Shown here one piece after another: positions 8,434 to 39,503 of a stretch of DNA of 40,195 bases. A model generated the notes under the pieces. The model did not search any database, had not been told where the DNA came from, and saw only the letters and a list, made by a program, of their open reading frames with translations. The DNA lies in contig SMYD01000054.1 in the NCBI GenBank assembly GCA_004356015.1, positions 1 through 40,195 on the forward strand. The letters are read 5' to 3'. The DNA is from Acidobacteriota bacterium (GTDB lineage: Bacteria; Acidobacteriota; Polarisedimenticolia; SMYD01). The first letter of the stretch is position 1, and each line of letters starts with the position of its first letter. A program made the position numbers and the translations under genes.

Positions 8434-10163
8434 AGACCCGGGCGTGGGTCGCCACCAGCCTGGCCTGGCTGCTCCTGGCATCAGCCTGCGGCGGAGGAGG
8501 CGGGGACGAGCCGGACTGGATTCTGGTGGGTGGTGTGGTGCTCACCGGTGAGGACGATGCACCACGGGCCGAGGCCCTGGCCGTGAAGGACGGCCGCATT
8601 GTCGGGGTGGGCCCTCGATCCCTGATCGAGGCCATGGCCGGGCCGGCCACACGCCTGGAGGATCTGCGCGGCCATGTGGTGGTCCCGGGCCTGGTGGATG
8701 CTCACGGGCATGTTCTGGGGCTGGGTTTTTCCCTCCGCCGGGTCGAATTGCGCGGTGCCGGGACCTATGCCGAATTGATCCGGCGAGCCGCAGACCGGGC
8801 AGCGGAGCAGGAGCCTGGCTCCTGGATCCTGGGTCGCGGCTGGGACCAGACTCTGTGGGAGGGAGGTGAGTTCCCTCACCACTGGGAGCTCTCGGCGGCT
8901 GTGCCCCATCACCCTGTGCTTCTGGATCGGGTGGATGGGCATGCCGCGCTGGCCAATGAAGCGGCACTGGTCCTCGCCGGTATCAACCGGGACACGCCGG
9001 ATCCTCCCGGGGGGCGCATTTTCCATGATGCGGAGGGCTTGCCCACCGGGGTCCTCATCGACAACGCCATCGGCCTGGTCGAACCTCATGTGACCCCTCC
9101 CTCCCGCGCCGAGCAACTGGAAGCCCTGGACCTGGCCGTTCACCATCTGGCGGCCCTGGGTCTCACCGGCGTTCATGATGCCGGCGTGGGTTACAACCCG
9201 ACTCTGGGGCTGGCTGACCCGCAGGACCCAGGCTGGGGCATGGTGGATCTCTACCGGGAACTCCTTGCCGCCGGGCGATTGCCCATCAGGGTCTACGTGA
9301 TGCTGGGTGGCAATGGTGCTTCTCCCGGGCAGGAAGCGTATTTCGCCCGGCCGCCGGTTCTGGGTGAGGGGGATGGCATGATCACGGTCCGCGCCATCAA
9401 GGTGGGCGTGGATGGGGCTCTCGGTTCCCGTGGCGCCGCCCTTGTCGAGCCCTACACGGATCGACCTGGGACCCGCGGGCTCCTCCTCCGGGATCAGGCG
9501 ACCCTGGATCGGCTCATGAGCCGTGCCTTCGCCGACGGCTGGCAGGTGGCGGTGCATGCCATCGGTGACCGGGCGAATCGGATGGTTCTGGATGCCGTGG
9601 AAAAGGCTCGCCGCGATCACCCGGACGTCGCCGATCCGCGCCCGCGGGTGGAGCATGCCCAGGTGTTGCGCCCGGTTGATATCCCGCGCTTCGCCCGGCT
9701 GGGTGTCATCGCATCCGTCCAGCCAACCCACGCCACATCGGATCGACGCTGGGCCGCGACCCGGCTTGGCGAGGAAAGGCTGCAGGGCGCCTATGCCTAT
9801 GGTTCCCTGGCGGGTGCCGGAGCCGTGCTCGCCTGCGGGTCGGATTTCCCCGTTGAGAACGCCGATCCTCTCGCCGGACTGCAGGCGGCCGTGGCCCGGA
9901 CCGATGCCCGGGGTGAGCCCGAGGGAGGATGGCGCCTCCAGGAAGCCCTGTCACCGGCCGCTGCCCTGGCCTGCTTCACAAGAGGGCCTGCCTACGCCGC
10001 TTTCATGGAGGACGAAACCGGGCGCCTGGCGGTGGGTCTGCGCGCCGACTTCACCGTGCTTGACGGAGATCCCCTGACCGTGGACGTGGGGACTCTGTCC
10101 GCCCTCAAGGTGGTGCGTACCGTGGTGGGTGGCCGTACGACCTACCAGGCTTCCTCTCCCTGA
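8430..10163 (+). CDS. Amidohydrolase family lipoprotein (YtcJ/AmdH3-like)
   Basis: 577 residues from the ATG that overlaps the rpoH stop. The signal peptide ends in a lipobox LASAC (Cys20), followed by a Gly-rich linker, so the mature enzyme should be lipid-anchored in the envelope. The catalytic domain is the amidohydrolase-3 type. It has VVPGLVDAHGHVLGLG (His92, His94 metal ligands), DRVDGHAALANEAAL, IKVGVDGALGSRGA, VHAIGDRANRMVLDAV, RVEHAQVLRP and ACGSDFPVENADPL, and ends with the LRADFTVLDGDPL strand of the composite beta domain. These enzymes hydrolyse C-N bonds of amides or related compounds; the substrate cannot be read from sequence. The next gene begins 5 bp after the stop. Confidence 0.9.
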   Translation: MKTRAWVATSLAWLLLASACGGGGGDEPDWILVGGVVLTGEDDAPRAEALAVKDGRIVGVGPRSLIEAMAGPATRLEDLRGHVVVPGLVDAHGHVLGLGFSLRRVELRGAGTYAELIRRAADRAAEQEPGSWILGRGWDQTLWEGGEFPHHWELSAAVPHHPVLLDRVDGHAALANEAALVLAGINRDTPDPPGGRIFHDAEGLPTGVLIDNAIGLVEPHVTPPSRAEQLEALDLAVHHLAALGLTGVHDAGVGYNPTLGLADPQDPGWGMVDLYRELLAAGRLPIRVYVMLGGNGASPGQEAYFARPPVLGEGDGMITVRAIKVGVDGALGSRGAALVEPYTDRPGTRGLLLRDQATLDRLMSRAFADGWQVAVHAIGDRANRMVLDAVEKARRDHPDVADPRPRVEHAQVLRPVDIPRFARLGVIASVQPTHATSDRRWAATRLGEERLQGAYAYGSLAGAGAVLACGSDFPVENADPLAGLQAAVARTDARGEPEGGWRLQEALSPAAALACFTRGPAYAAFMEDETGRLAVGLRADFTVLDGDPLTVDVGTLSALKVVRTVVGGRTTYQASSP

Positions 10164-10168
10164 GCCTC

Positions 10169-10801
10169 GTGACGTCCCGAAATAATCCGCCGCCGATCGC
10201 CGAGGCCTGGCGTACACCCCGCCGCCTGCAGGCGCTGGTGGAACTGTGGCGTGAGGCGGGCCGGCGAACGGAGATCCCCGTGCAGGGGCGCAGCATGTTC
10301 CCTCTCCTCCGGGATGGGTGGCGCCTGGAACTGGATCACGGCATGGTGGAGCATCCCCGTGGGAGCATCATCGTGTTTCTCCAGGGGCGTGTTCTTGTGG
10401 CTCATCGGGTGGTGGGACGCCGGCGCAACGGGGCCTACCTGACCAAGGGTGATGCCCTGCTCCATTATGACCGGCGCCCGGTTCTGCCGGTCAAGGTTCT
10501 GGGTCGGGTTGTGGCGGTGCATCATGAGGGCGGCGTGATCCGGCTCACCGGCAGGCGGCAGCGCCTGCTGGGGCGCACCGTAGCCATGGTTTCCGTGCTG
10601 GTGGCCGAATTGCACCGGGCCGCGGCGCCCCTGCGTCGCTGGACCACCGCCGCCGGGCGTCTTCCCGGCGCCCTTCCCGGTCCCACCCGATCCCTGGGAG
10701 CCGTCAATCGCCGGGTCATGGCGGTGGCAGGGCGCCTGCTGGGGAGGGCTCAGCCGCCCCCCGGCCATCCAGACAATCCCGGTGGCGATGGCGGCGCGTA
10801 G
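10169..10801 (+). CDS. S24/S26-type (signal-peptidase-like) protein
   Basis: 210 residues from a GTG start. The core has the S24/S26 fold signature: VQGRSMFPLLRDG with the presumed nucleophile Ser42, RGSIIVFLQGRVLVAHRVV with His79 where bacterial type I signal peptidases have Lys, then LTKGDALLHYD and VLGRVVAVHHEGG. The His in HRVV resembles the Ser/His arrangement of archaeal, eukaryotic and SipW-type enzymes. There is no transmembrane anchor; the C-terminal ~80 residues are Arg/Ala/Pro-rich and not conserved-looking. It is the last gene of the run from 5191. Its 3' end overlaps the opposite-strand glycosyltransferase gene by 52 bp. Whether it is an active peptidase is unproven. Confidence 0.72.
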   Translation: MTSRNNPPPIAEAWRTPRRLQALVELWREAGRRTEIPVQGRSMFPLLRDGWRLELDHGMVEHPRGSIIVFLQGRVLVAHRVVGRRRNGAYLTKGDALLHYDRRPVLPVKVLGRVVAVHHEGGVIRLTGRRQRLLGRTVAMVSVLVAELHRAAAPLRRWTTAAGRLPGALPGPTRSLGAVNRRVMAVAGRLLGRAQPPPGHPDNPGGDGGA

Positions 10802-12102
10802 AGGTCCGGCACGCGCGCGCCCCAGCAGACGAGCAGGATGGCCAGGATCACCGTGGCCCATATCATCTGCCGGTGGCGGCGGGGCCGCCGCGGGGTCGTG
10901 GCACGCCATGGGAGAACGGCCATCACAGCGCCCACCACCAGTACCGGCATCAGGGGCAGGCGGAAGCGGGACATGCCGAACGTCACCACATGTACCGCCA
11001 GGGTGTAGAGCACCATGATGACGGTGAGTTGCCACCACGCACCGCCGTGGCGTGTCCAGCCCCATACCGCCAGAGCCATGAGGGCCATGTTGAACAAGGC
11101 GATGACCGTGACCGCCCCGTGGGCCAGAGGCGGCGGCCAGTCCCCGTAGAGACCACGGCGGATGTGACGGACCAGAAACGAGGTCGGGTTGACCAGGTCG
11201 GCAACCTTCGTACCGGCGCGGGTCACGAAACGGAGAGGATGCTGGATGATCTGTTCCACGCCGTAACGGGTCAGGCAGGCGTCGAGATCCACCAGGTCGG
11301 CATCTTGGCATCCCGCCTGCAGGACAACGCCGCGGGTTGAGCGTCCCGTGCCCCAGTCCCAGTTGCTGGGGGCGACGGGGTTGTTGCCCCGCACCAGGTT
11401 CTTGCCGGTTGTGGTCTCGATGAGAACCAGGCGGCCGTAGGCCGCATAATTACGCGCCGTCCACGGCAGGATCACCGCCATGGTTCCGGCCATGAGCAGC
11501 ACCGCCACCCGGACTCCACGGCGCGTGGGTGTGCCCGCGATGACCCAGACGGCCAGGAGAGGGACCAGGTACAGGGGCAGCACCTTCACCAGGCAGGATG
11601 CCCCCATGGCCAGGCCGGCGGCCAGGGCCAGAGGGCCGGAAGCGCGCATGCGGGCGGTATGGATCAGAAGCAGGGCGCCTGTGAAGAGAGTGAGGAACAG
11701 GGTCTCGCTCCACAGGTAGTGGGCGTAGGCGACGAGAGTGGGGTGGAACGCCACCAGGAGGGCGGCGGCCATGCCCACGCGCTCGCCATCCGGCCGGCCC
11801 GCGTCCCTGGCCGCCTGCCGGCCCAGGAGAAAGATCATGGGGACCAGGAGAGTGGAGAGGAAAGCCTGGGTGACGCGGGCGCCACCCAGCCCCAGGCCCA
11901 GCTTCAGGTGGCCGGCCAGGTAGGCGATGTATCCCGGCGGCCAGTAGTGGCGGGCATGGGGTTGAAAGCCTTCGCCGTCGGCAAGCTGGTGAGCCAGGTT
12001 GCCGTAGAAACATTCATCGTAGGCACAATCGATATCCCAGGCCGCGGCCACCCCGGCCAGGCGGACGGCCAGGGCCGCCAGGATCAGGAGCCACAGTCTC
12101 AC
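10750..12102 (-). CDS. GT-C family glycosyltransferase (ArnT/PMT-like), membrane
   Basis: 450 residues with about ten hydrophobic helices. The N-terminal helix is followed by an outer loop with YDECFYG (Asp29-Glu30), then HYWPPGYIAYLAG. This order is typical of dolichol- or undecaprenyl-phosphate-sugar-dependent GT-C transferases (PMT/ArnT, GT39/GT83-like). Such enzymes move a sugar from a polyprenyl carrier onto a lipid, glycan or protein outside the cytoplasm. Its start overlaps the upstream sulfatase-like gene by 4 bp. It is the fourth and last gene of the leftward run from 17484. Acceptor and sugar are unknown. Confidence 0.85.
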   Translation of the reverse strand: MRLWLLILAALAVRLAGVAAAWDIDCAYDECFYGNLAHQLADGEGFQPHARHYWPPGYIAYLAGHLKLGLGLGGARVTQAFLSTLLVPMIFLLGRQAARDAGRPDGERVGMAAALLVAFHPTLVAYAHYLWSETLFLTLFTGALLLIHTARMRASGPLALAAGLAMGASCLVKVLPLYLVPLLAVWVIAGTPTRRGVRVAVLLMAGTMAVILPWTARNYAAYGRLVLIETTTGKNLVRGNNPVAPSNWDWGTGRSTRGVVLQAGCQDADLVDLDACLTRYGVEQIIQHPLRFVTRAGTKVADLVNPTSFLVRHIRRGLYGDWPPPLAHGAVTVIALFNMALMALAVWGWTRHGGAWWQLTVIMVLYTLAVHVVTFGMSRFRLPLMPVLVVGAVMAVLPWRATTPRRPRRHRQMIWATVILAILLVCWGARVPDLYAPPSPPGLSGWPGGG

Positions 12103-13571
12103 GAGCCGGGGGGGCAGTGGTCGGTGAGGCGAGACATGGTCTCGGGCATGTCATCTTCTCCCTGGAGATATCCCAGGGACTTGAGGCGCTCCTGGGCCTC
12201 GGGAGAGAGAAGTCGCGGCGCTTGCAGGTGGAAGTCCTTCTCCCTGACGAACTCGCAGGCTCTGGCTCTGAGGGCGGCCGTTCTCTCGGGATAAGCGGCG
12301 GCCACGTTCTCCTGCTGCAGGGGATCGGCGGCCAGATCGTAGAGTTCTTCCGGGGCGATGCTGAACCCCAGGTCCGAGCCCGGTTTGAACGGGGCGCCGT
12401 AGGGGACCACAGCATCAGGATTCCAGATGTAGCGCCAGTTTCCCTGCCCCACAATGACCATCTTGTCCCCCCACTCGGCAAAGGTCGTCTCGGCGCCTGT
12501 GGCACCTGCCTCCCGGCGGGCCAGGCCGGCCCGGCTCCCCCCCTCCATGCCCAGGTTCTCGGAGGCCAGCCCCAGAAGATCCAGCACCGTGGGGGCAATG
12601 TCCACGGAGGCGATGGGCATCTCCGCGACCTGGCCGGCAGGCAGATGGCCCGGCCATCTCAGGATCAAGGGGATGGAGAGAACCTGCTGGTAGACCGAAC
12701 TGAGGTGGTAGTAGTAGGCATTGTGGTCGCCCAGTTCCTCGCCGTGGTCGGCGGTGAACACCACCAGCGTGTCGTCGGCGAGTCCTGCCGCTTCCAGGGC
12801 GGTGAGCAGATCGCCGATATGGGCATCGGTGGAACTGACCTGGCTGTCATAGATGGCAAGGAGTTGCCGCCGCTGGGCCGGTGTGGGAGGTGTCCGGGCC
12901 AGGGTGAGCTGGGCCAGGGAATCGTCATTCACCGCGAAGGAACCATCGTACTCATCCCTGGCGAACTCCGGCACCAGGTCGAACGGCTTATGAGGATCGA
13001 TGTAGTGAACCCAGGCGAAGAATGGCGGGTCTCGATCCTTCGTCATGAAGGTGATGGCTTCCCTGGTGATGGCCGTATCCCATTCAGGCTGGTCATGGCT
13101 CATCCACTGCCGTCGCATCCCCGGGGCCGGGGGACCTGCGTCTCCCCACCAGGAACAGAAGAGCACCGCCAGGCCCCTGTTGGGGGCGTCACACATGTTG
13201 GACAGGAAGGCACCGGTCTCGTAACCGGCCGCGGTCAGCCGCTGGGGCAGGGTGACGAACTGTTCATCCAGCTTGGCCCCGTTATTGCGGATCTGGTGTG
13301 TGCGGGGATGGAGGCCTGTCATCAGGGTCGTGACGGATGGCCAGGTCAATCCCCTGGGAGCCTGCACCGAAGCAAACCGCACTCCTTGCCGGGCCAGGCC
13401 GTCAATGTGAGGCGTGTTCCCCTCGGGACCGCCGTAGCAGGTGACTCGATCCAGGCGCAATGTGTCGACCGAGATGAGGAGGACGTTGGGGGCCCGGGGT
13501 TCCTGGAGTCCGCAGGCCGCGGCTGCCAGAGCCACCACGCAGGCCGTGGTTCCCAGAAGGTACCGGCTCAT
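12099..13571 (-). CDS. Sulfatase-superfamily lipoprotein (Thr at nucleophile site)
   Basis: 490 residues. The signal peptide ends with lipobox AAAC (Cys20). The catalytic domain belongs to the alkaline phosphatase/sulfatase superfamily: [15 protein letters not shown] (metal Asp36), then [15 protein letters not shown], and [13 protein letters not shown] (Asp275-His276). Where true sulfatases have C/S-x-P-x-R, this protein has T76-W-P-S-V, with Thr in place of Cys/Ser and no Arg. Maturation to formylglycine is therefore not expected. A Thr nucleophile is known in LtaS and phosphoethanolamine transferases. It ends with the LKSLGYLQ segment common in lipoprotein sulfatases. It overlaps both neighbours by 4 bp and lies between two GT-C genes. 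Confidence 0.86.
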
Positions 13572-15142
13572 GAATCGGTTTCTCCGCCTTCTCTTCTCTG
13601 GTAAAAATTCATCATGGTGTCTGCCAGGGGTACCGAGCGCCAGCGATAACGATCATGGAACCCGGGCAGTTCCAGGAGCTCGCGCTCCGACACGTAAAGA
13701 TATCCCCTGGCGAGATTCCTTTCCGGCAAGGGCATCCTGCTGAATCGCGCTTCCGTGAACAGGATCACATGGGGAAGGCCGGCCAGGACCAGCGCGCCAT
13801 CGCCCTTCTCGTGTCCGGCGGGACCACGGCCCATGCTCGGCATCTCACGGTGGCCGATGGCCGCATGATTGATTCCCCACATATCCAGCGTGCGCCGACC
13901 CGTGTAATAAGGAATTGCTCCTGCCGGTCCCGTGGCGATGAGGGCGTCCGCCGGCAGGTTCGCGTCGAACCAGGCTGCCGCCTGGCGCAGAATCTTCAGA
14001 TCCGTCTGGCGCCACGCGGCAAAGTAACGCGCCTGACCGGAGCCCATGGCCGCCCAGATCAGCAGGCCGGCGGCCAGGATCAGGACCAGAGCCTGACCTC
14101 GGCGGGGCTGGACTCTGCTCAGACCGGCAAGAAGACCCGCCAGCCCGCTGCAGGCCAGGACGGCCAGGAGCGGCAGGCTCCAGACCAGGAAGCGGAAGGT
14201 GGGTTTGAAATCGCCACCTTCCAGCGCCACACCCGCCGTGGCGGCAAGCCAGACCACGCCGGTGAGGACGATGGCACGCTGTCGGGGTCTCTCCTGCCGC
14301 AGGGTTCCCGATGCCAGCAGGGCCAGGATCGCCAGCAGGACCCACGGCAGGAAATGCAGCCAGCCGGAACCCACGTAGAGCAGCCCGCGGAGAACCTGGT
14401 CCCAGCCGCCACCGGTCTTGGCGTGAAACGTATGGGGCAGCCAGGCATGGTAGGTGAGCAGACGGAAGACGAGATGGGGGACCACAGGCACGGCGAACAG
14501 GATGAGGGACATCACCTGAAGGCGCCCCGGGCGGCGGCGCAGCCGGGCCAGACCCAGCCAGTCGGCCAGGATGACCACGGCGAAGACCAGGTACCCCTCC
14601 GGCCGGGTGAGAGCGCTCAATCCCAGGAGCAGGGCGGAGTAAGGAACGGCCTTGTGTCCCTCCCCGGTGGCGACGATCTCGGTGGCACGGCGCGCCAGGG
14701 CCGCGGTGACCAGAGCGGCCATGAAGGTGGTCTCGAGGCCCTGGATGGCCTCCACCACGAAGAAGGAATTCGCTGCCAGCATGCCGGCGGGAAGGGCCCA
14801 CAGGAGCGGGTAGCGGGGCATGAGAGTCCGGGCCAGGAAATACGTTGCCATCTGCGCGCCCATGGCGGCCAGCAGGCCCAGGGTGCGCGCGGCACTCTCC
14901 GCATTCAGGCCGAGAGCCGTGGTACCGGCCAGCAGCAAAGTCCAGAGGAAATTGGTGTAGCCCTCCACCGGTTGCGGGTCGCCTGCATTGAAGACCAGGC
15001 CGTGCCCCGTGGCCAGGTTACGGGCGTAGCGGAACGAGATGAAGGCGTCGTCGGAGAGGCAGTCGGGGGCGAGCATGCCCAGAAGGGGGACAGCCGCCAT
15101 AGCTGTGGCCAGAAGGAGGAGAGCCCAGGTGGCGGGTCGCAC
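13568..15142 (-). CDS. GT-C glycosyltransferase, AftB/Rv3805c-like membrane protein
   Basis: 524 residues from a GTG start, with about ten to twelve hydrophobic helices. The first outer loop carries [15 protein letters not shown] (Asp31-Asp32), GHGLVFN and [10 protein letters not shown]. This arrangement is seen in the terminal arabinofuranosyltransferase family (AftB, Rv3805c) and related GT-C proteins in many diderm bacteria. The C-terminal ~150 residues after the last helices form a soluble periplasmic domain (from about [13 protein letters not shown]). It begins 20 bp after the sulfatase-TPR gene and ends in a 4-bp overlap with the next sulfatase-like gene. It likely uses a decaprenyl/undecaprenyl-phosphate-linked sugar; which sugar cannot be told. 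Confidence 0.82.
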
Positions 15143-15162
15143 AGCGAGAGTCGAACTGCCTG

Positions 15163-17484
15163 TCAGGGTGTCGCCTTATCTGCGGCAGGGGTGGGGGCCG
15201 CAGGTGGGGCTGCGCCGGCCAGATATCTTTCCACGGCGGCTCTTACGGCCGGGAATTCGTGTCCCGCGGTCAGGAAGAGCTGGGCCTGCAGGGCGCTGCG
15301 CAGGGCCGGTTCGTTGGCAGCGAAGACTTTTTCCAGGTATGCCAGCGCTCCGGCCTCATCGTCCTTCATCAGCGAGGACTGGGCAAGGCCGTAATAGATC
15401 GCAGGTTGCTCACCCCCGGTACGCAGCGCCGCCAGGAGCTCTTCATCGGCGTGCTCAGGGTCGCTTCGAGCCAGGGCCACCTGCCCCATGATGTAGTACG
15501 CTTGGGGGTCGTCGGGAACGCTGACCCGGACGTTGTCCACTTCCAGGGCGGCCTCATCATAGAGACCCAGGTGCAGAAACTGTTCTGCGATGGTCAGGGT
15601 CGCCCCGGGTTCCCTCACCTTGTCAGGCAGGGACTTGCGCCAGGCGGCCCGCGCTTCAGGCAGTCGTCCTGCCTGGGCATGCAGATCCCCCATTTCTTTT
15701 TCCACAAGACGATCCTGGGGGTCGATGCGCTGGGCCTCTTCCAGGAGAATCAGAGCGCCCTCGGGTGAGTCGGTGGCCAGGGCAGCCCGGGCGAGAGTGC
15801 GGTAGGTCGCGCTGGATCCGGGTGAAAGTGTGGCGGCCGACGCCAGCAGGCGTTGTGCTTCCTCCGGCTGGCCGGAGTCGAGGAAGATCTGGCCCAGGGC
15901 GAAATCCAGGGTCGCCGAGGCCGCTTGCCCCGATGCCGCGGCGCGGGCGGCGGGAATGGCTGCATCAGGATGGCCTTCCATGAGCAGGTGGCGGGCCAGC
16001 TTGAGTTTGAAATCGATGCGTGTGCCCGCATTGCTGGCGGCATGTTGCCACGCGTCGGCCGATGGCCGCCCCAGTTCATCTTCCAGGGTCGCCAGGGAGC
16101 TCCACAGATCGGCGCAGGGGCCGGCCGCAATGGCGAGGCGCCGAAGAGCCACGACGGCCTCGTCGGGTCGGCCCTGGCCACGCCGGATGGCGGCTTCCAT
16201 GCGGCCGGCCATGGGTGTCATCCGTGCCGCCGCAGGCCACCGGGACATGCTTGTCAGAGCTTCACCGAAACGCTGAGCCGTCAGCAGCGCCGAGGTGTCG
16301 CTGGCTGCGGCCATGAGCGCAGCACGTTCCTGCTCGTCCAGGACCAGGTACGGTTCAGGTCCCAGGTCGGGAGCGGCAGGTACGCCATCTTCTCCGGCGA
16401 TGGCGGTCCGGGAGACACCACCCCTGCGTATCTGCCGCAGAGGCGGAAGGTGATAGCTGAAGAAGGGGATGTACGACTCGGAATAGAGAGGACGATCCGG
16501 ATCTTCCGACCCCTCGCCGGTGCGCAGCAGGGCAGCCTGGGAACGGCCGTCAAGGGGCCCACCCATGGTTGCGGGCGCCAGGCCGGCGAGATCCGCGAGA
16601 GTCGGTGCCAGGTCCAGAAGGCTGACAGGTTGATCCAGTCTGCGTGCTTTCCCGTTGCCGGGAGCCTGGACCACCAGGGGCACATGCAGGACCGAGGGTG
16701 AGAGGGTCTGTCCATGTGTCCTCTCGCCCTGGTCACCCAGCGCCTCACCGTGATCGGCGGTCACCACGATCCACGCGTCGGTCATGAGGCCGTGGTCGGA
16801 CAGCCCGTCCAGAAAGTCGGCCAGGGCTCCGTCGGCGGTGGCGAGAGCCGCGTCATACCTCTCTTCGACCGTCCCGGGCTCACCGCCGCCCAGGTACGGG
16901 TAATGGGTGTCGTGGAGATGAATCCAGGCGAACGTCGGCACCTTCCGATGCAGTTCCAGAAACTCCAGAGCCTCTGCAAACAGCGCCGGAGCGGCCAGGG
17001 AGCGCGTCTGTGAAGCCGCGGCCGGGTTGACCACCCGTCGAAAGCCCTCGTACAGGCCACTGTTCTCGTCGATGAAGGGAGCATTGACGAACATTCCCGT
17101 GGCCCACCCTCCTGCCAGGAGCCGGGTCGCCAGACGGGGCGTGTCACCTGAGAGGATGGACCCCTCGTCGTCAACAACGCCGGCAGCGGAGGGCACCCGG
17201 CCGGTCAGCATGCCCGTCAGGGCGGGCATGCTCAGAGGAGCGGGTGTCCATGCCTCGGTGAGAACGATGCCACCGGCGGCCATCTGGTCCAGCCTGGGCA
17301 TGACGGAGGTGCTGGCGCCGTAGGCCACAAGACGATCCGTGCGCATGCTGTCGATGGTGATGAGAATCATGCGCCGGTCGGAATCGGCGGGAGCACAGGC
17401 CACGATGATGCACAAGAACATCGCCAGGAACAGGACGAGTCCTCCTTCACACCTGTGGAATCGTGGACTGCGGGTGTTCTCCAT
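15163..17484 (-). CDS. Sulfatase-superfamily lipoprotein with C-terminal TPR repeats
   Basis: 773 residues from ATG 17484. This start is chosen because it begins a lipoprotein signal peptide (lipobox IVAC, Cys30); the frame is open to 17718, but that part is the shadow of the divergent gene. The N-terminal ~470 residues are a sulfatase/phosphodiesterase domain: [19 protein letters not shown] (Asp45), [15 protein letters not shown] and [14 protein letters not shown]. The nucleophile position is S85-M-P-A-L, lacking the Arg of C/S-x-P-x-R. The last ~280 residues are helical TPR-like repeats (for example [19 protein letters not shown] and [15 protein letters not shown]), probably a protein-docking arm. 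It heads the four-gene leftward run. Confidence 0.87.
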
Positions 17485-17493
17485 GGGGCGAGA

Positions 17494-17501
17494 ACTATAA
17501 C
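17494..17501. promoter_or_regulatory. Overlapping divergent -10 elements (bidirectional promoter)
   Basis: On the minus strand TGTTATAGT (extended -10; TATAGT at 17499-17494) ends 9 nt before the ATG at 17484. On the plus strand TATAAC (17496-17501) ends 9 nt before the GTG at 17511. The two hexamers share the central TATA, so one melting site could serve both directions and both starts sit equally far from it. Neither start has a useful Shine-Dalgarno sequence; an AAGGA on the plus strand is only 2-3 nt from the GTG. Both transcripts would be nearly leaderless. Confidence 0.6.
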
Positions 17502-17510
17502 ATAAGGATT

Positions 17511-18980
17511 GTGACTCCATACACGCGATCCGGGCGCGGTTCAGGCTCTCTGGGACTCCTGATTCTCCTGCTGGCGGCGGCCGCCTGCGGGCCGGGGGAG
17601 CAGCTCCCATCGGTGGTGATCGTGACGATCGATTCCCTGCGGGCGGATCATCTTCATCACGCCGGCGACCCGCGGGATCTGAGTCCGCGCCTGGATGCTC
17701 TGGCGGCGCAGGCGACACGCTTCAGCCAGGCCGGTGCCTCGGCCCCATGGACCACGCCGTCGGTCATGACCCTCTTCACCGGTCTCACGCCGGGGACCCA
17801 CCATGTGGATCTCAACGACAGGGCCCTGGCTGCCACCGTCCCGACGCTGGCAGAGCTGTTCCGGGGGGCGGGATATCGCACAGCAGCCATCATGCCGGCC
17901 CTGACCCTGGCGGATCACTTCGGCTTCGACCGGGGCTTCGACGATTTCATCTTCGCCACCCAGGGACACAGCAATGTGTCCGGCCCCTGGTCCATCAATC
18001 ATGCCATCGAATTTCTGCGCGACCACAGGGACGAGCCGATCTTTCTCTATGTGCACCTCTGGGATGTCCACTACAATTACAATCCTCCCGTTCCGCACTC
18101 AATCCGTTTTCAGGCCGGGCGCCCGGCAGGACCGGGCGAGACCGACGACATCACCGTCCTCGCAGGACCGGGTCATGACGCCGCCTCCCTGTCCCCGGAG
18201 CGGGTTGCCTGGCTGGAGGGGCAGTATGCCGGCGAGATCCTGTTCACCGATGAGCAGGTGGGGCGTCTGCTGGACGAGCTGGATCGCCTGGGCCGCACAG
18301 ATGACACCGTCGTGGTGGTGACCGCCGATCATGGAGAAGCCTTCCTGGAGCACCGGGTCATGGGGCACACGGTTCACCTGTACGATGAAATGACTCATGT
18401 GCCCCTGCTGGTGCGCTGGCCGGGGCAGGTCATGGCGGGGCGGATCGTGGATGAGCAGGTGGGGTTGGTGGACATGATGCCGACCCTGCTCGATCTGGTC
18501 GGCATTCCCTTCGCTTCCCAGTGGTTCGAAGGCCGCAATCTGGCACCTCTCCTGCGCTCCAAGCGCCCCGAAGAAGAGGGACCTCCCCTCCTGCTGGGGA
18601 CCTCACGGCAGGCCATGAAACGCGGCCTGCGCACGCCGTCCTGGTCGTACCAGGTGGACCTGGTCACCGGGGAGGACGAGCTGTACGACCTGGTTGCCGA
18701 CCCTGGTCAGCAGGAGAATCTGGCCATCGCCCTTCCCCGCGAAGCCTCCATCTGGCACCGGCGCCTCTGTAAACGGCTGGCGCACCGTCTTCCGGGAGGT
18801 GAGGTCGGCATCGACCCGTTGCCCGCTGATCTGCAGGAGATTCTGGCGGCCGGCCTGCGGACGCTGGGATATGTCAGTCCTGCCGGCTCAAAGGGCGGCC
18901 GCCAGGGTGATCCGGCGGTGGAGCGGCAGAGGATCTTGAAGGCGACAGGCTGTCCCGTGGAGCTTCTTCCCGGCCCTTGA
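17511..18980 (+). CDS. Sulfatase-superfamily lipoprotein (Thr at nucleophile site)
   Basis: 489 residues from GTG 17511, chosen because it directly precedes the lipoprotein signal peptide (LLILLLAAAAC, Cys26); the frame is open to 17463. Motifs are SVVIVTIDSLRADHL (Asp41), PWTTPSVMTLFTGL (T81-T-P-S-V at the nucleophile position, no Arg) and [13 protein letters not shown] (Asp273-His274). The end (ILAAGLRTLGYV) is like that of the 12099-13571 protein, so the two are probably paralogues. It is divergent from the operon headed by the third sulfatase-like gene, 26 bp away. The nature of the ester it cleaves or transfers is unknown. Its stop lies 3 bp from the stop of the convergent PHP gene. Confidence 0.86.
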   Translation: MTPYTRSGRGSGSLGLLILLLAAAACGPGEQLPSVVIVTIDSLRADHLHHAGDPRDLSPRLDALAAQATRFSQAGASAPWTTPSVMTLFTGLTPGTHHVDLNDRALAATVPTLAELFRGAGYRTAAIMPALTLADHFGFDRGFDDFIFATQGHSNVSGPWSINHAIEFLRDHRDEPIFLYVHLWDVHYNYNPPVPHSIRFQAGRPAGPGETDDITVLAGPGHDAASLSPERVAWLEGQYAGEILFTDEQVGRLLDELDRLGRTDDTVVVVTADHGEAFLEHRVMGHTVHLYDEMTHVPLLVRWPGQVMAGRIVDEQVGLVDMMPTLLDLVGIPFASQWFEGRNLAPLLRSKRPEEEGPPLLLGTSRQAMKRGLRTPSWSYQVDLVTGEDELYDLVADPGQQENLAIALPREASIWHRRLCKRLAHRLPGGEVGIDPLPADLQEILAAGLRTLGYVSPAGSKGGRQGDPAVERQRILKATGCPVELLPGP

Positions 18981-18983
18981 GCA

Positions 18984-21950
18984 TCAGGAGCGGCGGGTCC
19001 GGGGGCGGAAGAGCAGCCACAGGATCAGGCCCAGCGCGGCAACGGTCAACGCCAGGAGAGACCAGGGCGATCGTGCCAGACTCAGCGCCGGTGAAGACCA
19101 CCTCAGGTTCAGGCCGGAACCCTGCAGCGGCAAGGTCAAGACATCGGTGGCGGCATCATAGGTCCAGCGCACCGGTGCGCCGGAGTCGATGGCCGTGACC
19201 ACGGCCGGCTCGCCGCCGACTCTTTCCATGCGCAGCTCACCGCTCCGGCCGCTGCCCCGCAGGGTCAGTCCATGGGCGTCAACCCGCAGCCGTTCAACCC
19301 TGTACCGGCCGTTCCCGGTGAGGAAGCCACGTTCGGTTTCCGCCCGCAAGCGTGCGGCCGGGATGCCCTCGGGTGGCAGGTCGCGCAGGAGAAGGATGGC
19401 GTTGGTGAACACCACCGGCTCACCGCGGGAATCCCAGATCTCGGCCCGCACAGCCTGTGCGGTGGCGGGAAGATCGGCTTCGAGCTGAACCCGTCCCGCC
19501 GCATCAATGGGTACCGTCTTGTGCACGCGTCCGTCCAGGACCAGGTCCGCCCGGCCACCTGCAGGCAACTTCTCGCCATGAACAACGACGGTGTGGACCC
19601 GGGCCGGGCCTATGACGACTGCACCCGGGCCGTGGATCTGATCCATGTCCAGGCGCAGGGAGCCGTGAAAGAGAAGAGGGTCGCCGAAGACGAGACGACC
19701 GGCAAGCAGAGCGTCGATGAGGCTGTCCCGGGATGCAGGGTCGACAGCAGGGCTGTCGTTGATGCCACCGAACCACCCCAGCCAGGTGGCGAAGTTGTTC
19801 TCGTCACGGGTGAAGCCGTTGCCCCGGCCCGAGCCGTGGGCATCGGTGACGCCGATGCCGCTGACCGGGATTCCCTCGGCCAGGGCCCGGTCCCAGAACG
19901 CCAGGTGCTGACGCAGATCACTGCCGCTGCGGAAGCGATAGCCGGCCTCCAGAAGGTCGGCGCCGAAGAGGCGGTGCTGGATCTCGTCCTCCAGGTACTC
20001 GGGAGGATAAGGGATGAAGCCGAACCCCAGGGGGTGATTCAGTGAGAGAGCCCCCTGTCGGCGATGGGTTTCATCCAGGGCGTCGGCCACGTAGTTGTCC
20101 TCTGTCACGGTGGTGTAATCCAGCAGGAAGCGCTGAGGTGTGTAGCTGTTGAAATGAGGGACGTAATAGGAGATTTCAGCGCTGACATGGCTTGCCAGGG
20201 CGGGGTAGAAATCGGTCCACGATTCCTGGAGCGCCAGCAGGGGGTCGCCGCTGACGGCCACCTCGAGCTGCAGGTTGTCCATGTTCCAGCGGGCGGCCCC
20301 CTCATGGACCGTGATACCGAACTGAATTCCCGTCAGGGCATTGTCCAGTCCTTCGGGGAGCAGGGCGCGGGCATGTGAGGACACAGGGATGACCAGCCGG
20401 GTCCAGCGGCCGGGCTCGATGGTGACCACTGAGGTCGCGCCGGGAGACAGGGGGGAGGGCATGACGACCTGGCGAGGAGCGCCCGAGCCGGGCAGGGTCT
20501 CGACGCGATACAGGAGCCGGCGATGCACCCTGGGCTGGTCCGAGAGTTCAAGCTCGATGGTGAATTCCGAGCCGAACGGATTCTCCAGGTCGGGAAAGAG
20601 GTCCAGGGCCAGAGAGAGGTCCTGGGCCAGCGATCGGACGTGCAGCGCGCGGTAGTGGCGAAAGCCCCAGGCGGCGGAGGGCGGACGGCCGCCGCCTGGG
20701 CCGCTGCGCCGGGCGCTGATCTCAAGACTGCGGGCGCCCTCGGTGGCGCGCTGGTCCGACGGGACGGCCTGTGCCTGCAACCCGGGGTCCAGGCGACGTG
20801 GATCCATCACCCAGCCGGGCATACCCGGGTCCTCTTCGAAGCTGAAGGTCGGAGGAAAGTCCAGTCCAATGATGCGCCAGTCGTGCTCCGTCCAGAAGAC
20901 AGCGTCATAACCTGAGCGGGACATGAGATCCATCTGGGTGTCGACGCTGGCTGTCCCCTCCGAGAGGGAAGCATGGGTGTGCAGCGCCACCATGACGGGC
21001 CGCGGCACCCGGCGGTGGACAGCCGTGTTGTTGCCCTCACGGATCTCCCGCACGTCATCGCGGGGGTCGATTTCCACGAAATACTCGTTGACAGGGGATT
21101 CAAGTTGAAACACCAGCTCCGCCCGGCCACCCGGGTCCAGGGGCGGCAGCTCCAGCTCGAGCATCAGCCCGTCGCTCCGGGCCGGGATGTCCACGTGGGC
21201 CAGGCGCGGGTCATCCAGTGAGATGGTGACCTGGGCGGGTCCTGAGGGTTCGTCGGGTGGTGTGCCGGTGTCGCTGCTGCGGAAATAGCGTGTGACCCAC
21301 CAGTTGCCGATGAAGACCTGGCGGACGTGGGCGACGCCGGAGAGAAGCGGGTCTGCCAGGGTGAAGGAGTGCGGGGTCACGCCCGCCGGCACGGTCAGAT
21401 CAAACCCCCCGCCGGTTTGCCCGGTGGCGGCGTGCCAGCGAATCCAGTCCTGGTCGCGAACCAGCATGCCGGGAAGCGTCGCGCCCACGGGGGTGACGGC
21501 AAGGCCGCTCAGCGGCAGGCCGTCGCCATCCTCCAGGCGCAGGCGCCCTGAGAAGAAATCGCTGCCGGTGTTCCCGCGCCAGCGCACGCGCAGGCGCCAG
21601 CCCGAGGATGCGGGCTCGGGCCAGATCACCAGGGCCCGTTCTCCAGGCAGGATCTCATGGCGAGGGAAGGCGGAAGCCGTGGTCCCTGGAACCTGCAGGG
21701 GTGGTCGGTCCGTCAGGCGCACCGAGGTGGCAACCGAGGGACGCGATCCGCGATTGCTGATCACGACCCGGACCTGGAGGCCATCGCTGGTGCTCTGGAA
21801 CCCGGCCGGATCGGCGACCAGGTCCGGCGCGCCGGGGGGAAGGTCGGGACCACGCTCGCCGGCTGTTGCCCATGGAAGGGCCAGGAGCAGGAGACCGCAT
21901 ATCCAGCCGGCACCTAGCCGGGTGGCACTCCCTGGGTATCGTTTGACCAC
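18984..21950 (-). CDS. Secreted CehA/McbA-like PHP-domain metallohydrolase with C-terminal membrane anchor
   Basis: 988 residues from GTG 21950; the frame is open to a TTG at 22019. The GTG is preferred because it precedes a signal peptide (WICGLLLLALPWATAG) and lies 8 nt after an extended -10. The N-terminal ~310 residues hold CARDB/Ig-like strands such as GLQVRVVISNRGSRPSVATSVRL. The PHP-type metal site follows: HTHASLSEG (His324, His326), FWTEHDWR (His356-Asp357), NHPLGFGF (His639) and VTDAHGSG (Asp703, His705), interrupted by a beta-rich insert of about 250 residues. The protein ends with one hydrophobic helix and a basic tail (LFRPRTRRS). The reaction is probably phosphoester or related hydrolysis at the cell surface; the substrate is unknown. 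Confidence 0.82.
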   Translation of the reverse strand: MVKRYPGSATRLGAGWICGLLLLALPWATAGERGPDLPPGAPDLVADPAGFQSTSDGLQVRVVISNRGSRPSVATSVRLTDRPPLQVPGTTASAFPRHEILPGERALVIWPEPASSGWRLRVRWRGNTGSDFFSGRLRLEDGDGLPLSGLAVTPVGATLPGMLVRDQDWIRWHAATGQTGGGFDLTVPAGVTPHSFTLADPLLSGVAHVRQVFIGNWWVTRYFRSSDTGTPPDEPSGPAQVTISLDDPRLAHVDIPARSDGLMLELELPPLDPGGRAELVFQLESPVNEYFVEIDPRDDVREIREGNNTAVHRRVPRPVMVALHTHASLSEGTASVDTQMDLMSRSGYDAVFWTEHDWRIIGLDFPPTFSFEEDPGMPGWVMDPRRLDPGLQAQAVPSDQRATEGARSLEISARRSGPGGGRPPSAAWGFRHYRALHVRSLAQDLSLALDLFPDLENPFGSEFTIELELSDQPRVHRRLLYRVETLPGSGAPRQVVMPSPLSPGATSVVTIEPGRWTRLVIPVSSHARALLPEGLDNALTGIQFGITVHEGAARWNMDNLQLEVAVSGDPLLALQESWTDFYPALASHVSAEISYYVPHFNSYTPQRFLLDYTTVTEDNYVADALDETHRRQGALSLNHPLGFGFIPYPPEYLEDEIQHRLFGADLLEAGYRFRSGSDLRQHLAFWDRALAEGIPVSGIGVTDAHGSGRGNGFTRDENNFATWLGWFGGINDSPAVDPASRDSLIDALLAGRLVFGDPLLFHGSLRLDMDQIHGPGAVVIGPARVHTVVVHGEKLPAGGRADLVLDGRVHKTVPIDAAGRVQLEADLPATAQAVRAEIWDSRGEPVVFTNAILLLRDLPPEGIPAARLRAETERGFLTGNGRYRVERLRVDAHGLTLRGSGRSGELRMERVGGEPAVVTAIDSGAPVRWTYDAATDVLTLPLQGSGLNLRWSSPALSLARSPWSLLALTVAALGLILWLLFRPRTRRS

Positions 21951-22167: not shown

Positions 22168-25100
22168 ATGATCCACCGTGAGGTGAGGGATCGGCGGCCT
22201 GTAAAAGGTCATTTTTTCAAGGGAATTCTGGTCGTCATGGCCCTCTCGACCCTGGCCGGCAGCACAGGCTGGGCCGGTCGGGCCGAGGTGAGAGGGAGGC
22301 GGGGAGGGACTGAGGATCTCCTCAGTACCAACCTCATGCCGGCCCCGCGCCAACCTGGCCTCTCCGATGGCGGGGTGGACCTCCCGGTTCTGTACGAGCG
22401 TGGCCTGACGCCTCTTTTCCCGGCCTGGCCGGCGGTCAACCGCCGGGCACTGTTTTCCTCCCCGGAACATCTGCCCACCGTGAACGGAGTGATCGACCTG
22501 CGCCGTCCGCTCCCGGGCGGCCTTGGAGTCGACCTCGGCCGGACTTTCGGGGACCGTGGGGCGACCCTTCTGGTGGTGACCGACGGTCTCTCGGGCGAGA
22601 GAGTAGGCCAGGCTCTGAGAAACGGGGGCGGCCATCTGGTGGCCCCCTTCGGGCCCAATGCCTGGATCATCCAGGCCAACGAGGTGCATGTCCTGAGTGG
22701 GCTGGCGCGGCATCCCGGTGTTCTGAGTGTGTTGCCGTTCGGGCCGGAATTGATCGTGGACCGGAGGATCGGCCAGATTCCGGTGGTCAGCAAGGAGGAA
22801 TCCCAGCGTTCCGACCTGCCCCTGCGGGCCGGTGTCCTGCCCGGGGCCGATCCCCAGGCCGTGGCTGCTGATCTGTCGGCCTTCGGGGCCAGTGTGACCG
22901 GGATCCAGAAGTCGCCCAGTGCCTTCCCGGTGATCCGTTTTCGCATGCCTTATGACCTTATTCTCACGGCGGCCGAGCAAGTCCCCGGGCTCTTCCGCAT
23001 CGAGGAGGACACGGCTGTCATGGTGGCCGGCGAGGAAATGGCCGCCTCCATGCAGAGCGGTGGCTTTCTCAACGGCCGCGTCCCCCTCTGGGACGCCGGA
23101 GTTGATGGAGGGGGTGGCAGTTTCAGTACGCCGCAGATCGTGGCGGTGACCGATACCGGACTGTCGTATGACGCCACCCATTTCGCCGATACCATCGCGA
23201 CGGCCGGCATCCCCGGACCGCTCCACAGCAAGCTCGAGTCGTACCTGGCGGTGGGTGGAGGCGATCTCCTGAGTTGCGACAGCCCGGCGAATGGCGGCTC
23301 CACGCATGGCAATATCGTTGCCGGGGTCATGGCCGGCAATGTGACGCGCTTCGGCATCGACCTGCGCAACAACCCCGGCTGGGAGTCGGCGTTCACCGAG
23401 TTCGCCGCCGATGGTGTGGCTCGCGGCGCCCGGATGGTTTTTCAGGATGCCCAGAATGCTGCCGCCTGCACCAGCGATTTCGATCTGGTGACTCCCGGAA
23501 ATCTCTTCGATCGCCTGACGGAGGCCCGCGCCCTGGGAGCCCGTGTCCACAACCTTTCATTCAGCGAATCGGGAAGTGAAGGGGTCTACAGCCTCGAATC
23601 CATGAACGTGGATGCATTCCTGCGCTCCAATCACGAATATCTGGCGGTGGTGGCCGCCGGGAACAGCGGTTCCGACGCCGATGGTGACGGGAACTATGAA
23701 TTCGGTTCCATCACCGCGCCGGGTACCGCCAAGAATGCGCTGACCGTGGGCGCATCCAATTTCCCCAACGAGCCCATCAATCCGTTCGACCCGGTCCTGT
23801 CGTTGACCCCGGGAGTTCCCAACGAGGGCATCAACTTGCTGGCGGTCTTTGCCACTGGCAGCACCGGCCGTGGCCCGGCAAAGTTCCCCAACCGGGTCAA
23901 GCCCGATGTCATGGCGCCGGGGCAGGACATCTTTCCCAACCTGCGGGTCGACGGCGCGGCCGCCTGCGCTTCTTCGGATAACGACAACGATGAAGCCACC
24001 GGCGGCATTGAATGCATTCTGGATGACGACAACGATGGCACGTCGTTCGCCGCCGCCGGGGTGGCCGGAGCAGCAGCCCTGGTGCGCGATTATTTTGCCC
24101 AGGGGTTCGGCGATGACGGCGGCCCCGGCGGGCCGGAAGTCGGCCTGTCCGTGTCCGGTGCGGCGGTGAAGGCCGTGCTCCTGGGGTCGGCTGAAATGAT
24201 GGAAGTTTCGCCGGCTTTCAGGCTGGACCTGGTGCAGCCGAGATTTGATATCCCCGATCTCCGCGGCCGTTTCAACTTCGAGCAGGGCTACGGCCGGGTG
24301 AACCTGTCCAAGATTCTCCCGTTGAATACCAGCGTGGAGACTCCCCGCGGCCTCTTCCTCGAGGACCAGGGAATCAACGGGGGCTTGCTCCAGGGGGAGA
24401 CCTACTCACGCACGTTCACGGTCCTGAATCCCGACGAGGAGTTGCGCATTTCCCTGGCCTGGATGGACGTCCCGGATCTCTCCGGCAACGGTTCCCTGCT
24501 CAATGATCTGGACCTTCGAGTGATCGATCACGGGTCCGACAACATTCTTGGAACCAGCGACGATGTTCTCTATCACGGCAACTTCTTCACCGAGGATCAG
24601 GGTAATTTCGATGGTCGCCTGCAGCTTTTTGACCCCAACTTTCCGGGCATCGAGGGGGAGGACAGTGATGGTGATGGCGTCCTGGATGAGAGTGCATTTT
24701 CTCTGCCGGTGGATGTTTCCCTGCGCGATTATCGCGACGATCAGAACCCCAACGAGGTGGTGATGCTTTCACCGGACCCCAATCGGGATGGTGATGATCT
24801 GGATCGGCAGGTCTTCCCGGGCCGCCAGTACACTGTCAAGGTTCTGGCCCGGCGTATCCTCGCGCCTTTTGAGACCATTATCACCGCCGGCAGCAACCTT
24901 TCCCTGGATTCGACGCCCGGCGGTGACGACCAGATCAGTGGTGACACCATCGATGCCGGCCCCGACGGCGTGGCCCAGACCACGGCTGCCGGGGATGATG
25001 TCCAGGTGGTGAACGTGGGCGAGTCGTCCCCCCAGCGTTTTGCCCTGGTGGTGAGCGGTGGCATCGTGAACACCGCCAGCGTGCGTCTCAACGCCTCCCG

Positions 25101-28100
25101 TTTTGTCTGTAATGCGCTGGTGACCCCCGAGATCCTCGACCCCAGCGGCGGGCTCCTGGCAAGTGATGTGTCCCTGGCCCTGTCCATCCAGGTGCTGGAT
25201 CCGGCCATGGGAATCCTGGATACGGAATCCGTGGTCAGCTTCAGCCAGCCTGATGCCGGCAACGGCCGCTTCGTGGGAGAGCCGCTGGCGGCTATTGACG
25301 GGCTCACGCCGGTGGCCAACGATGGCGTTCTCTCGGTGGTGGATGGGGCGACGATCATCGTCACCTACAGCGATGCCGATGGCCCGGTCGTGGACTTTCG
25401 TGCCCAGGTTTCCTGTGAACCAAATCTGGATGTTGCGACCATCTCAGTCCCGGGTGCCAATCAGAATTACCGGGTCCAGGGAGGTTGCGATCCTCCCCTG
25501 AGGCGGGATCCTCGCGGCTTCCTGGTGGGTTCGGATCAGAACCCGGTGGGAGATATGTTCCTTGACGCCGGTGAACGGTTGAGTTATAGCGTGGCCATTC
25601 TCAACCAGGAACTGAGCCAGGATCTGATTGACGCGGTGGGGACCCTCCGGGCTGTGCTGCCCGACGGCGACAACGCCACCGACCCCGCACGCCTGAACAA
25701 TCCCTCGGCGGACAATCTTGTGACCATTTATAACCCGCAACGTGACGTGGGGTTGATCCCCCGCGGCAGCCTGCAGTCGGTATCGTTCGATATCCGGGTG
25801 TCGGACAACGCCACCTTCCCGAATCAGATTGAGATGGTCTTCGGTCTCAGTGCCCGGCGCAACGGTCTGCCCGTACAATCGACCATTGTCTTTCTCCACA
25901 CTCTCAACATGGACATGGAGAGTTTCCGCTATTCCAGTGATTTCCCCACTGGCGGCAGCGAGACGCGAGTCTATGCCGGGGAACTGTTTGACGTATTGAA
26001 TCCTCAGCTGGCCGCAGAGACATTCATCTTTGCCGATGCCTCGGACACGTCATTTGGCGGCGGCAATCCCCAGTGGGATGTGGGGGCCGCCGAACCCAAG
26101 GCGCCGTGGACCTTCGATCTGGATAACGAGAACTTCCTTTCCCGGCGCCGATTCGACTCCAATCCGGGGTTGAATCTGCAGCTCAACCTGAATCTCTGGC
26201 ACTGGATGAACACCGGTGAGTGCGGATTCCAGTCCAATGATGTGACTCAGACCGATGGTGATTACAGTTCCCCACAGCATTTTGTATCCGGGACGGGCGG
26301 CATCTGGCACACTGGAACCATCGGCGTGGATCCGCCGGAACCCGCGCGCAAGGCCGTCAACGGACGCACCGGCTTCGACCTGGGTTGCGAGGATTATGAT
26401 ATTCCCAACGATGCCAGTACACCCATCAATGAACAGGTGCTCGACGTCCTCAGCAGTCCGGTCTTCCACCGGGTGCACCAGGTTCCAGATGCCAACGGCT
26501 TCAATTACACCCTGCAATTCTCTCGTCTCGCCTTCAATACCCAGATCGATATCGCCGATGCCAACGTCATCCTCGGCTGGGAACTCGACCCGGATACCAC
26601 CACAGTCGACCCGGTGGATGCCCTGGACTTCGCCTGGTTGAACATCGTCAACTCGGCCCGTGGTTTCCTGACCGGTGTCTCCCAGATTCCGTATGCGACC
26701 TTCGATCCCAACAATCCCCATGAGCCGGGCACAGAATTCAACGTCGGGCCCCACGGTCCGGGCGGCCTGGGTTCGTACTATGACCCGGATGATCCCAACA
26801 AGGCTCCGGATCGCGCACTGGGTGCAGTGGGTGGCACCGGCTTCGGCACCATCCAGCTCCGGGGAGCAGGCGGTCTGCCTCTGCGCAACGTGGAAGAGAT
26901 TCTCGACGGTTTCTACGGCGGGAATACGGCTTTCGAGGACATCTTCGGGCCCAATGAGAACGAGCTGGCCGTGCCGCCCATCCGGCGTGATGACTTTCAG
27001 GTGAACTTCGGCATCTTCGTGAAAGAGAACGCCAACCCCTCCATCCAGACCCTCCCCAGTTATGGGATGGGGATTGACGACGTGGTGGTGGAGTGGGTGG
27101 AGAGTCACCCTGTGGCCGACACCTCGCCCTGTGTCAGCCTGGATCCTGGGAATCCTCTGGCCCTCGGGTCCTGTGCGCGCATTCTCTGGGACCGGTCGGT
27201 GGTGTATGAAGCCGAGGATTCGGCGGTCCTGAGCATCCTGGATCCGGACGCCGCCTTCGGCAGTGACCAGATTGCCGGCACCGGCGATGAACAGGCCGTG
27301 GACAGTGATGGGGACGGCTTCCTGGAACTGACCGCGAGGGTATTTTCCGACGTGGACATCGCCGGCGAGACCATCACCCTGGTGCAAACCGAGTTCCTGT
27401 CGCCTCTCTACACCGCCACGGTCCAGTTGTCCGCCAGCGTCGGCGCCAACTCCGCCACCGATGGCATCGTCTTCATGCAGCAGAACGGCGACGGCACCGT
27501 GCCGGTGGTCATCACGGCGCAATTTAACGATTTGGATGATGGCAGCGGTTCGGCCTGTGGGGATAATCCTCTCAAGGCCACCATGCAGACCCAGTTCGTG
27601 GGGGGTAACGTTCTCTTCGTGTCGGCCCGGGTGGAAGATCTCAACGGCGACCTGGACGATCTGCCCGATGCCGGAGAAACCATCCGGCTGAACATCACCG
27701 TGGTGTCCAACATGATCGACTCGGCGGACAACCCCGTGATCCTGGAGAACACGCGCATCTTCCTGACCTCCACCGACCCGGATATTGCGTGTATCACCGA
27801 CAACGTGGCCAACTATGGGGACCTGATCCCAGGTGAGGCGGCCAGCAATCCGCCAGGCGATATCTTCGAATTCGTTGTGGGCGAGGGTGTGGACCGTGTC
27901 TCCCTGAGCCAGATCATTCGGGGCACGTTCTCTCTGGGCATCTCCGGGTCCTTTGTCGATGTCAACGGCGTACGGCGCACCATCAGCAGTTTCGCCACAC
28001 CACAGATATTTGAACTGAACCTTGATCTGGACCTGACCGGGACCACGATCTCGGCGCCGGACTTTGTGGAGAACTGGGATTCGGTCTCCGAAGGTGGCGA

Positions 28101-39444: not shown

Positions 39445-39450
39445 GTCTTC

Positions 39451-39459
39451 AGTCTAACA
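39451..39459 (-). promoter_or_regulatory. Extended -10 TGTTAGACT, 6 nt before pyrF GTG
   Basis: On the minus strand TG-T-TAGACT is followed by GAAGAC and then the GTG of pyrF. The element has the same form as those at lolA, the PHP gene and the thioredoxin gene. A start about 7 nt downstream of the hexamer falls on the start codon itself. Confidence 0.5.
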
Positions 39460-39487
39460 CAGGGTCAGCGAGGGGCGGCAGAGAGAA

Positions 39488-39496
39488 TGGTATACT
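39488..39496 (+). promoter_or_regulatory. Extended -10 TGGTATACT, 7 nt before ATG 39504
   Basis: TG-G-TATACT (5/6 to TATAAT) is followed by 7 nt and the ATG of the thioredoxin-like gene. No Shine-Dalgarno sequence or -35 is visible. With the pyrF element on the other strand it fills the 59-bp divergent gap. Confidence 0.55.
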
Positions 39497-39503
39497 CAAC
39501 ATC

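Follow-up and report, generated by a model that had tools for sequence, protein, structure and literature searches.

A probable bidirectional core promoter for two near-leaderless genes in a 26-bp gap of an Acidobacteriota genome

How can two divergent genes be transcribed and translated when only 26 bp lie between their start codons? The question is raised by a stretch of 40,195 nucleotides from an uncultured Acidobacteriota MAG (contig SMYD01000054.1; 'the window' hereafter means this whole stretch), in which a divergent intergenic gap at 17485-17510, of sequence GGGGCGAGAACTATAACATAAGGATT, is bordered by an ATG at 17484 on the minus strand and a GTG at 17511 on the plus strand. An initial annotation had noted two hexamers, TATAGT (minus) and TATAAC (plus), that overlap at TATA, each 9 nt from its own start codon, and had proposed a shared, symmetric -10 element driving divergent, nearly leaderless transcription that locks the two genes together. 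On re-reading the sequence, the anatomy proved to be exactly as described, in gap length and in the start codon, hexamer and spacing on each strand. In our view, the gap probably holds one sigma70-type core promoter that works in both directions and yields two near-leaderless mRNAs. The shared -10 is thus retained as the best-supported reading, on the basis of conservation in one relative and of a genome-wide positional signal, while the locking of expression is not. The features discussed are the following.

15163..17484, minus strand: predicted lipoprotein of 773 aa, sulfatase-fold domain and TPR repeats (Pfam: PF00884, E = 2.5e-33; TPR families)
17485..17510, no strand: proposed bidirectional core promoter, whole gap; length kept and 23/26 positions identical in the sister species
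17494..17499 (read 17499..17494), minus strand: -10 element TATAGT, 9 nt before the ATG at 17484; identical in the sister locus
17494..17502, minus strand: extended -10 element TGTTATAGT (TGT before TATAGT), matching the TGN habit of the near-leaderless starts of the genome
17496..17501, plus strand: -10 element of the initial annotation, TATAAC, 9 nt before the GTG, without a T at -7
17498..17503, plus strand: preferred -10 element TAACAT (TANNNT), 7 nt before the GTG at 17511; identical in the sister locus
17498..17499, no strand: TA dinucleotide common to both predicted promoters, -12T/-11A of each, reciprocally base-paired, as read from the sequence
17511..18980, plus strand: predicted lipoprotein of 489 aa, sulfatase fold (Pfam: PF00884, E = 2.5e-47)

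Anatomy of the gap

The ATG at 17484 and the GTG at 17511 are the only plausible start codons. Each directly precedes the codons of a conserved lipoprotein signal peptide. The plus strand has an alternative GTG upstream, at 17463, but the sister species does not share it and it would place the -10 element within the gene; it was therefore rejected as a start. Our home-made gene caller set the plus start at 17613, because of the low scores of signal-peptide codons; we preferred the GTG at 17511, which is conserved and is the only start that yields the signal peptide.

On the plus strand, TAACAT fits the TANNNT rule better than TATAAC, since it keeps both A-11 and T-7, while TATAAC ends in C and lacks T-7. 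If the plus -10 is read as TAACAT, the self-complementary TA at 17498-17499 belongs to both -10 elements, with positions -12 and -11 pairing across strands. Elements on opposite strands then overlap and share key bases within ACTATAACAT (17494-17503), which is the arrangement described as -10 symmetry. At the optimal 7-bp distance from the -10 element, transcription would start at 17510 on the plus strand and at 17487 on the minus strand, 23 bp apart. Extended -10 promoters have the form TGnTATAAT; the minus strand resembles them, with TGTTATAGT and no -35, whereas the plus strand has no extended -10. No -35 was recognisable on either strand, by eye at 16-18 bp spacing or by scan, and the scan of 17300-17700 returned no -10/-35 promoter-like site.

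No Shine-Dalgarno (SD) sequence was found for the minus gene. The plus gene has an SD-like AAGGA 2 nt before the GTG, which is too close, and which reads AAGAC in the sister species. Neither gene thus has a usable SD, as would be expected of leaderless genes. A 26-bp gap would have TANNNT 6-9 nt from each of its ends by chance with a probability of about 2% (shuffles of the gap) or 0.3% (genome composition), and by itself the anatomy is therefore only a moderate surprise.

Gene starts across the genome

The start signals of the genome (G000, 2.73 Mb) were analysed over 1.09 Mb, using gene starts from a simple codon-model caller that makes no use of upstream signals. SD-like motifs peak 9-13 nt before the called starts, which indicates that SD-led initiation is the main mode here. 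TANNNT is also enriched close to the starts, about 12 bp upstream: at spacers of 6-9 nt, divergent genes had 27 occurrences for 7.8 expected (Poisson P = 7e-8), and co-directional genes had 24 for 14. We conclude from the peak at divergent genes that near-leaderless genes are a general feature of this genome; in a published survey, Acidobacteria had on average 13% leaderless genes (PMC3160421). Of the 55 starts classed as putatively leaderless, just 6 have an SD-like motif within 20 nt. The hexamer was preceded by TGN at 24/55 of the near-leaderless starts, compared to 14/108 of the TANNNT sites further upstream (P = 2.5e-5). Classical -35/-10 promoters exist as well, since a TTG accompanies about one-quarter of upstream TANNNT sites, at a spacing of 17-18 bp.

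Both starts at the gap fall in the putative leaderless class, with a plus spacer of 7 nt and a minus spacer of 9 nt, the latter at the long edge of the 6-9 nt range, the peak proper of the genome being at 6-7 nt.

Elsewhere in the window, a divergent gap of 59 bp (39445-39503) has TAGACT 6 nt before a minus-strand GTG and TATACT 7 nt before a plus-strand ATG; these look like two separate leaderless-type starts, with no common -10. The minus-strand gene at 18984-21950, which encodes a CehA/McbA-type metallohydrolase-like protein, has TAAGAT 8 nt before its GTG (21950) and is probably another leaderless start.

Conservation of the gap in a sister species

Conservation was assessed in one close relative of the same genus (G001, contig C43, JAPUKF010000137.1; locus L068). 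There the gap is again 26 bp long, with no indel and 23/26 identical positions, and both hexamers and both spacings are unchanged; the alignment proposed in the initial annotation thus gave the expected outcome, in this one relative. The core GAACTATAACATAAG is identical at 15/15 positions, while identity in the first 50-100 coding bases is 68-76% on each side, and at third codon positions 74-81%. At a local identity of 0.75-0.76, an unchanged 15-bp core has a probability of about 0.013-0.016, and 23/26 over the gap one of about 0.08-0.10. The excess of conservation over the flanks is therefore modest and suggestive. The change of AAGGA to AAGAC argues that the SD-like motif is not what is being kept. 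Taken together, the genome-wide TANNNT peak and the unchanged elements of the sister gap carry more weight than the anatomy.

An orthologous divergent pair was sought in 100 relatives and in the genome contigs, and was found in the sister species alone. Among the more distant homologues examined in other genera (about 40% identity), none had a divergent sulfatase neighbour; the arrangement is therefore known in this genus only.

A model for the gap, and its alternatives

In the proposed mechanism, the TA-rich element ACTATAACAT would supply one TANNNT -10 element per strand around the central TA, and a single RNA polymerase at a time would bind it, facing either way. From the extended -10, the minus transcript would start at about 17484-17487, and from TAACAT the plus transcript at about 17509-17511, so that both mRNA leaders would be 0-3 nt long. 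Both mRNAs would be translated without an SD, like the other near-leaderless genes of the genome, and the common site would link the two genes only in that the same DNA has to open for both and that they may compete. The observations that support this model are the anatomy, the genome-wide positional signal, the absence of both a conserved SD and a -35, and the conservation in one sister; promoter activity, start positions, leaderless translation and mutual exclusion we infer. The predicted 23-bp start spacing and a paralogous locus of the sister (L200, below) also speak for it. Against it count the minus spacer at the long edge of the peak, the plus side without an extended -10 or a -35, the modest excess of conservation in the one relative that retains the pair, the chance of about 2% for the two-sided motif at this composition, and the simple caller behind the gene starts of the genome-wide analysis.

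Could the minus direction be the only true promoter? The extended -10 would then serve the longer minus operon, the plus gene would depend on an unseen promoter within the minus gene, and the symmetric, AT-rich core would have given rise to the plus hexamers as by-products. The minus site does fit the extended -10 habit of the genome, and on the plus strand TATAAC lacks T-7, while TAACAT lacks both TGN and a -35. However, the sister species has the same TAACAT, again 7 nt from the start, no promoter-like plus-strand site was seen upstream within the scanned 17300-17700, and a longer plus leader would have no SD to serve it, since AAGGA is too close to the GTG and is not conserved. We regard this alternative as unlikely, though it is the one to be taken most seriously. 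It is quite improbable that each gene has its promoter at some distance from the gap, within the opposing gene, yielding overlapping leadered mRNAs, with the TATA being just an AT-rich break between genes. The genome does possess promoters of the classical type, but none was found between 17300 and 17700, both genes lack a usable SD, and the gap core is well conserved beside fast-evolving signal peptides.

The gap might also be mainly an operator, its resemblance to a promoter being secondary: an inverted repeat, GTTCTC-N8-GAGAAC (17476-17495), overlaps the minus start and the minus -10. This repeat is not conserved in the sister species (GTCTTC-N8-GGGAAC), on which ground the operator was rejected, and its hairpin energy is no better than that of shuffled sequences; we judge such a role very improbable. 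The single bidirectional core promoter remains the preferred reading.

Recurrence of the arrangement

Among 96 divergent gene pairs, TANNNT was present on both sides in 5 at spacers of 5-10, compared to 1 at control spacers of 11-16. Two of these 5 pairs have a gap of more than 50 bp and no common -10, and the numbers are too few for a firm claim.

Individual loci were also found. In the sister genome, a sulfatase paralogue (57% identical) lies beside the same ACTATAA core as here, placed between divergent starts (L200; G001:C113, 3801-3850), with a different partner, a transglutaminase-like predicted lipoprotein. TATAGT lies 8 nt upstream of the minus GTG, and only this start fits a leaderless gene; the plus start is uncertain, since TATAAT is merely 2 nt from the first in-frame ATG. 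In the genome under study, the divergent gap L135 (G000:C182, 9405-9433) has overlapping TATACT (minus) and TAAAGT (plus). Here too the -10 seems to be shared, although an SD-led ATG at 9459 may be the start of the plus gene. The minus gene of L135 encodes a phosphodiesterase-fold and TPR protein, whose domain layout resembles that of the minus gene at 15163..17484. L094 (G000:C6) is perhaps a weaker, doubtful case, where the called gene starts overlap. Tentatively, the genus may repeatedly pack a divergent control region into about 25 bp by combining leaderless translation with -10 symmetry, at the present gap, L200, L135 and perhaps L094.

The flanking genes

Both flanking proteins have lipoprotein-type N-termini (IIVAC in the 773-aa protein, AAAAC in the 489-aa protein) and are 30% identical over the catalytic domain. 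The initial annotation had called them sulfatases. The fold was confirmed, with matches to PF00884 (sulfatase/alkaline phosphatase fold) of 116 and 162 bits for a cut-off of 25, but the enzyme name was not. The C/S-X-P-X-R motif of formylglycine (FGly) sulfatases is broken in both, reading SMPAL (minus) and TTPSV (plus) where 7oz8 has STPAR, and its Arg is missing from both. Naming these proteins sulfatases is thus unsafe; the alkaline phosphatase superfamily has other hydrolases and transferases, to which they may belong.

The 773-aa gene leads an apparent minus-strand operon (10750-17484), which continues towards 10750 with a membrane protein without a Pfam match, a second sulfatase-fold protein and a PMT_2-like protein; the last three genes overlap by 4 bases. 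The window also encodes a subtilase-family protein of 2620 aa (22168-30030; PF00082).

Relation to known systems, and significance

The gap is best described as joining two known phenomena, -10 symmetry and leaderless starts, in one site, rather than as a new kind of system. It resembles the symmetric -10 bidirectional promoters described by Warman, Grainger and colleagues (PMC12825309, PMC10268837) in that TANNNT motifs of both strands overlap in one -10 element. The start spacings favoured by such promoters are 18, 10 and 23 bp (PMC12825309), and the 23 bp predicted here, from sequence alone, is among these three. In contrast to them, both RNAs are here predicted to be mRNAs with almost no leader, and the gap is not of the commonest, 18-bp form. 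It resembles leaderless genes with a TANNNT by the start codon (PMC3160421; the -10 motif of Deinococcus, PMC12340547), with TANNNT about 12-15 nt upstream and no SD. Those were described one direction at a time, whereas here one core would serve two divergent genes. We found no study, by title or abstract, that combines leaderless genes with a divergent bidirectional promoter in bacteria.

Would the shared site couple the two genes? In E. coli bidirectional promoters, opposite polymerase binding is mutually exclusive, the basal outputs of the two directions are nearly independent, and one direction, when strongly activated, can repress the other (PMC12825309). The proposal that expression is locked together is therefore unsupported, since a shared -10 takes a single polymerase at a time. 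Likewise, the gap itself leaves no room for a regulator, as had been proposed, but regulators can bind within the flanking genes.

If our reading is correct, the gap also tests how SD-free starts work in Acidobacteriota, a phylum for which we found no start-site data. Repeated use of the arrangement, if true, would define a class of minimal promoters that work both ways, each a single binding site that selects one of two SD-free mRNAs. The gap would itself be a natural divergent promoter of very small size, at 26 bp with both leaders counted, and most of its bases would have a promoter or start role. It would therefore be well suited to show cleanly whether two genes with a shared -10 are coupled or opposed.
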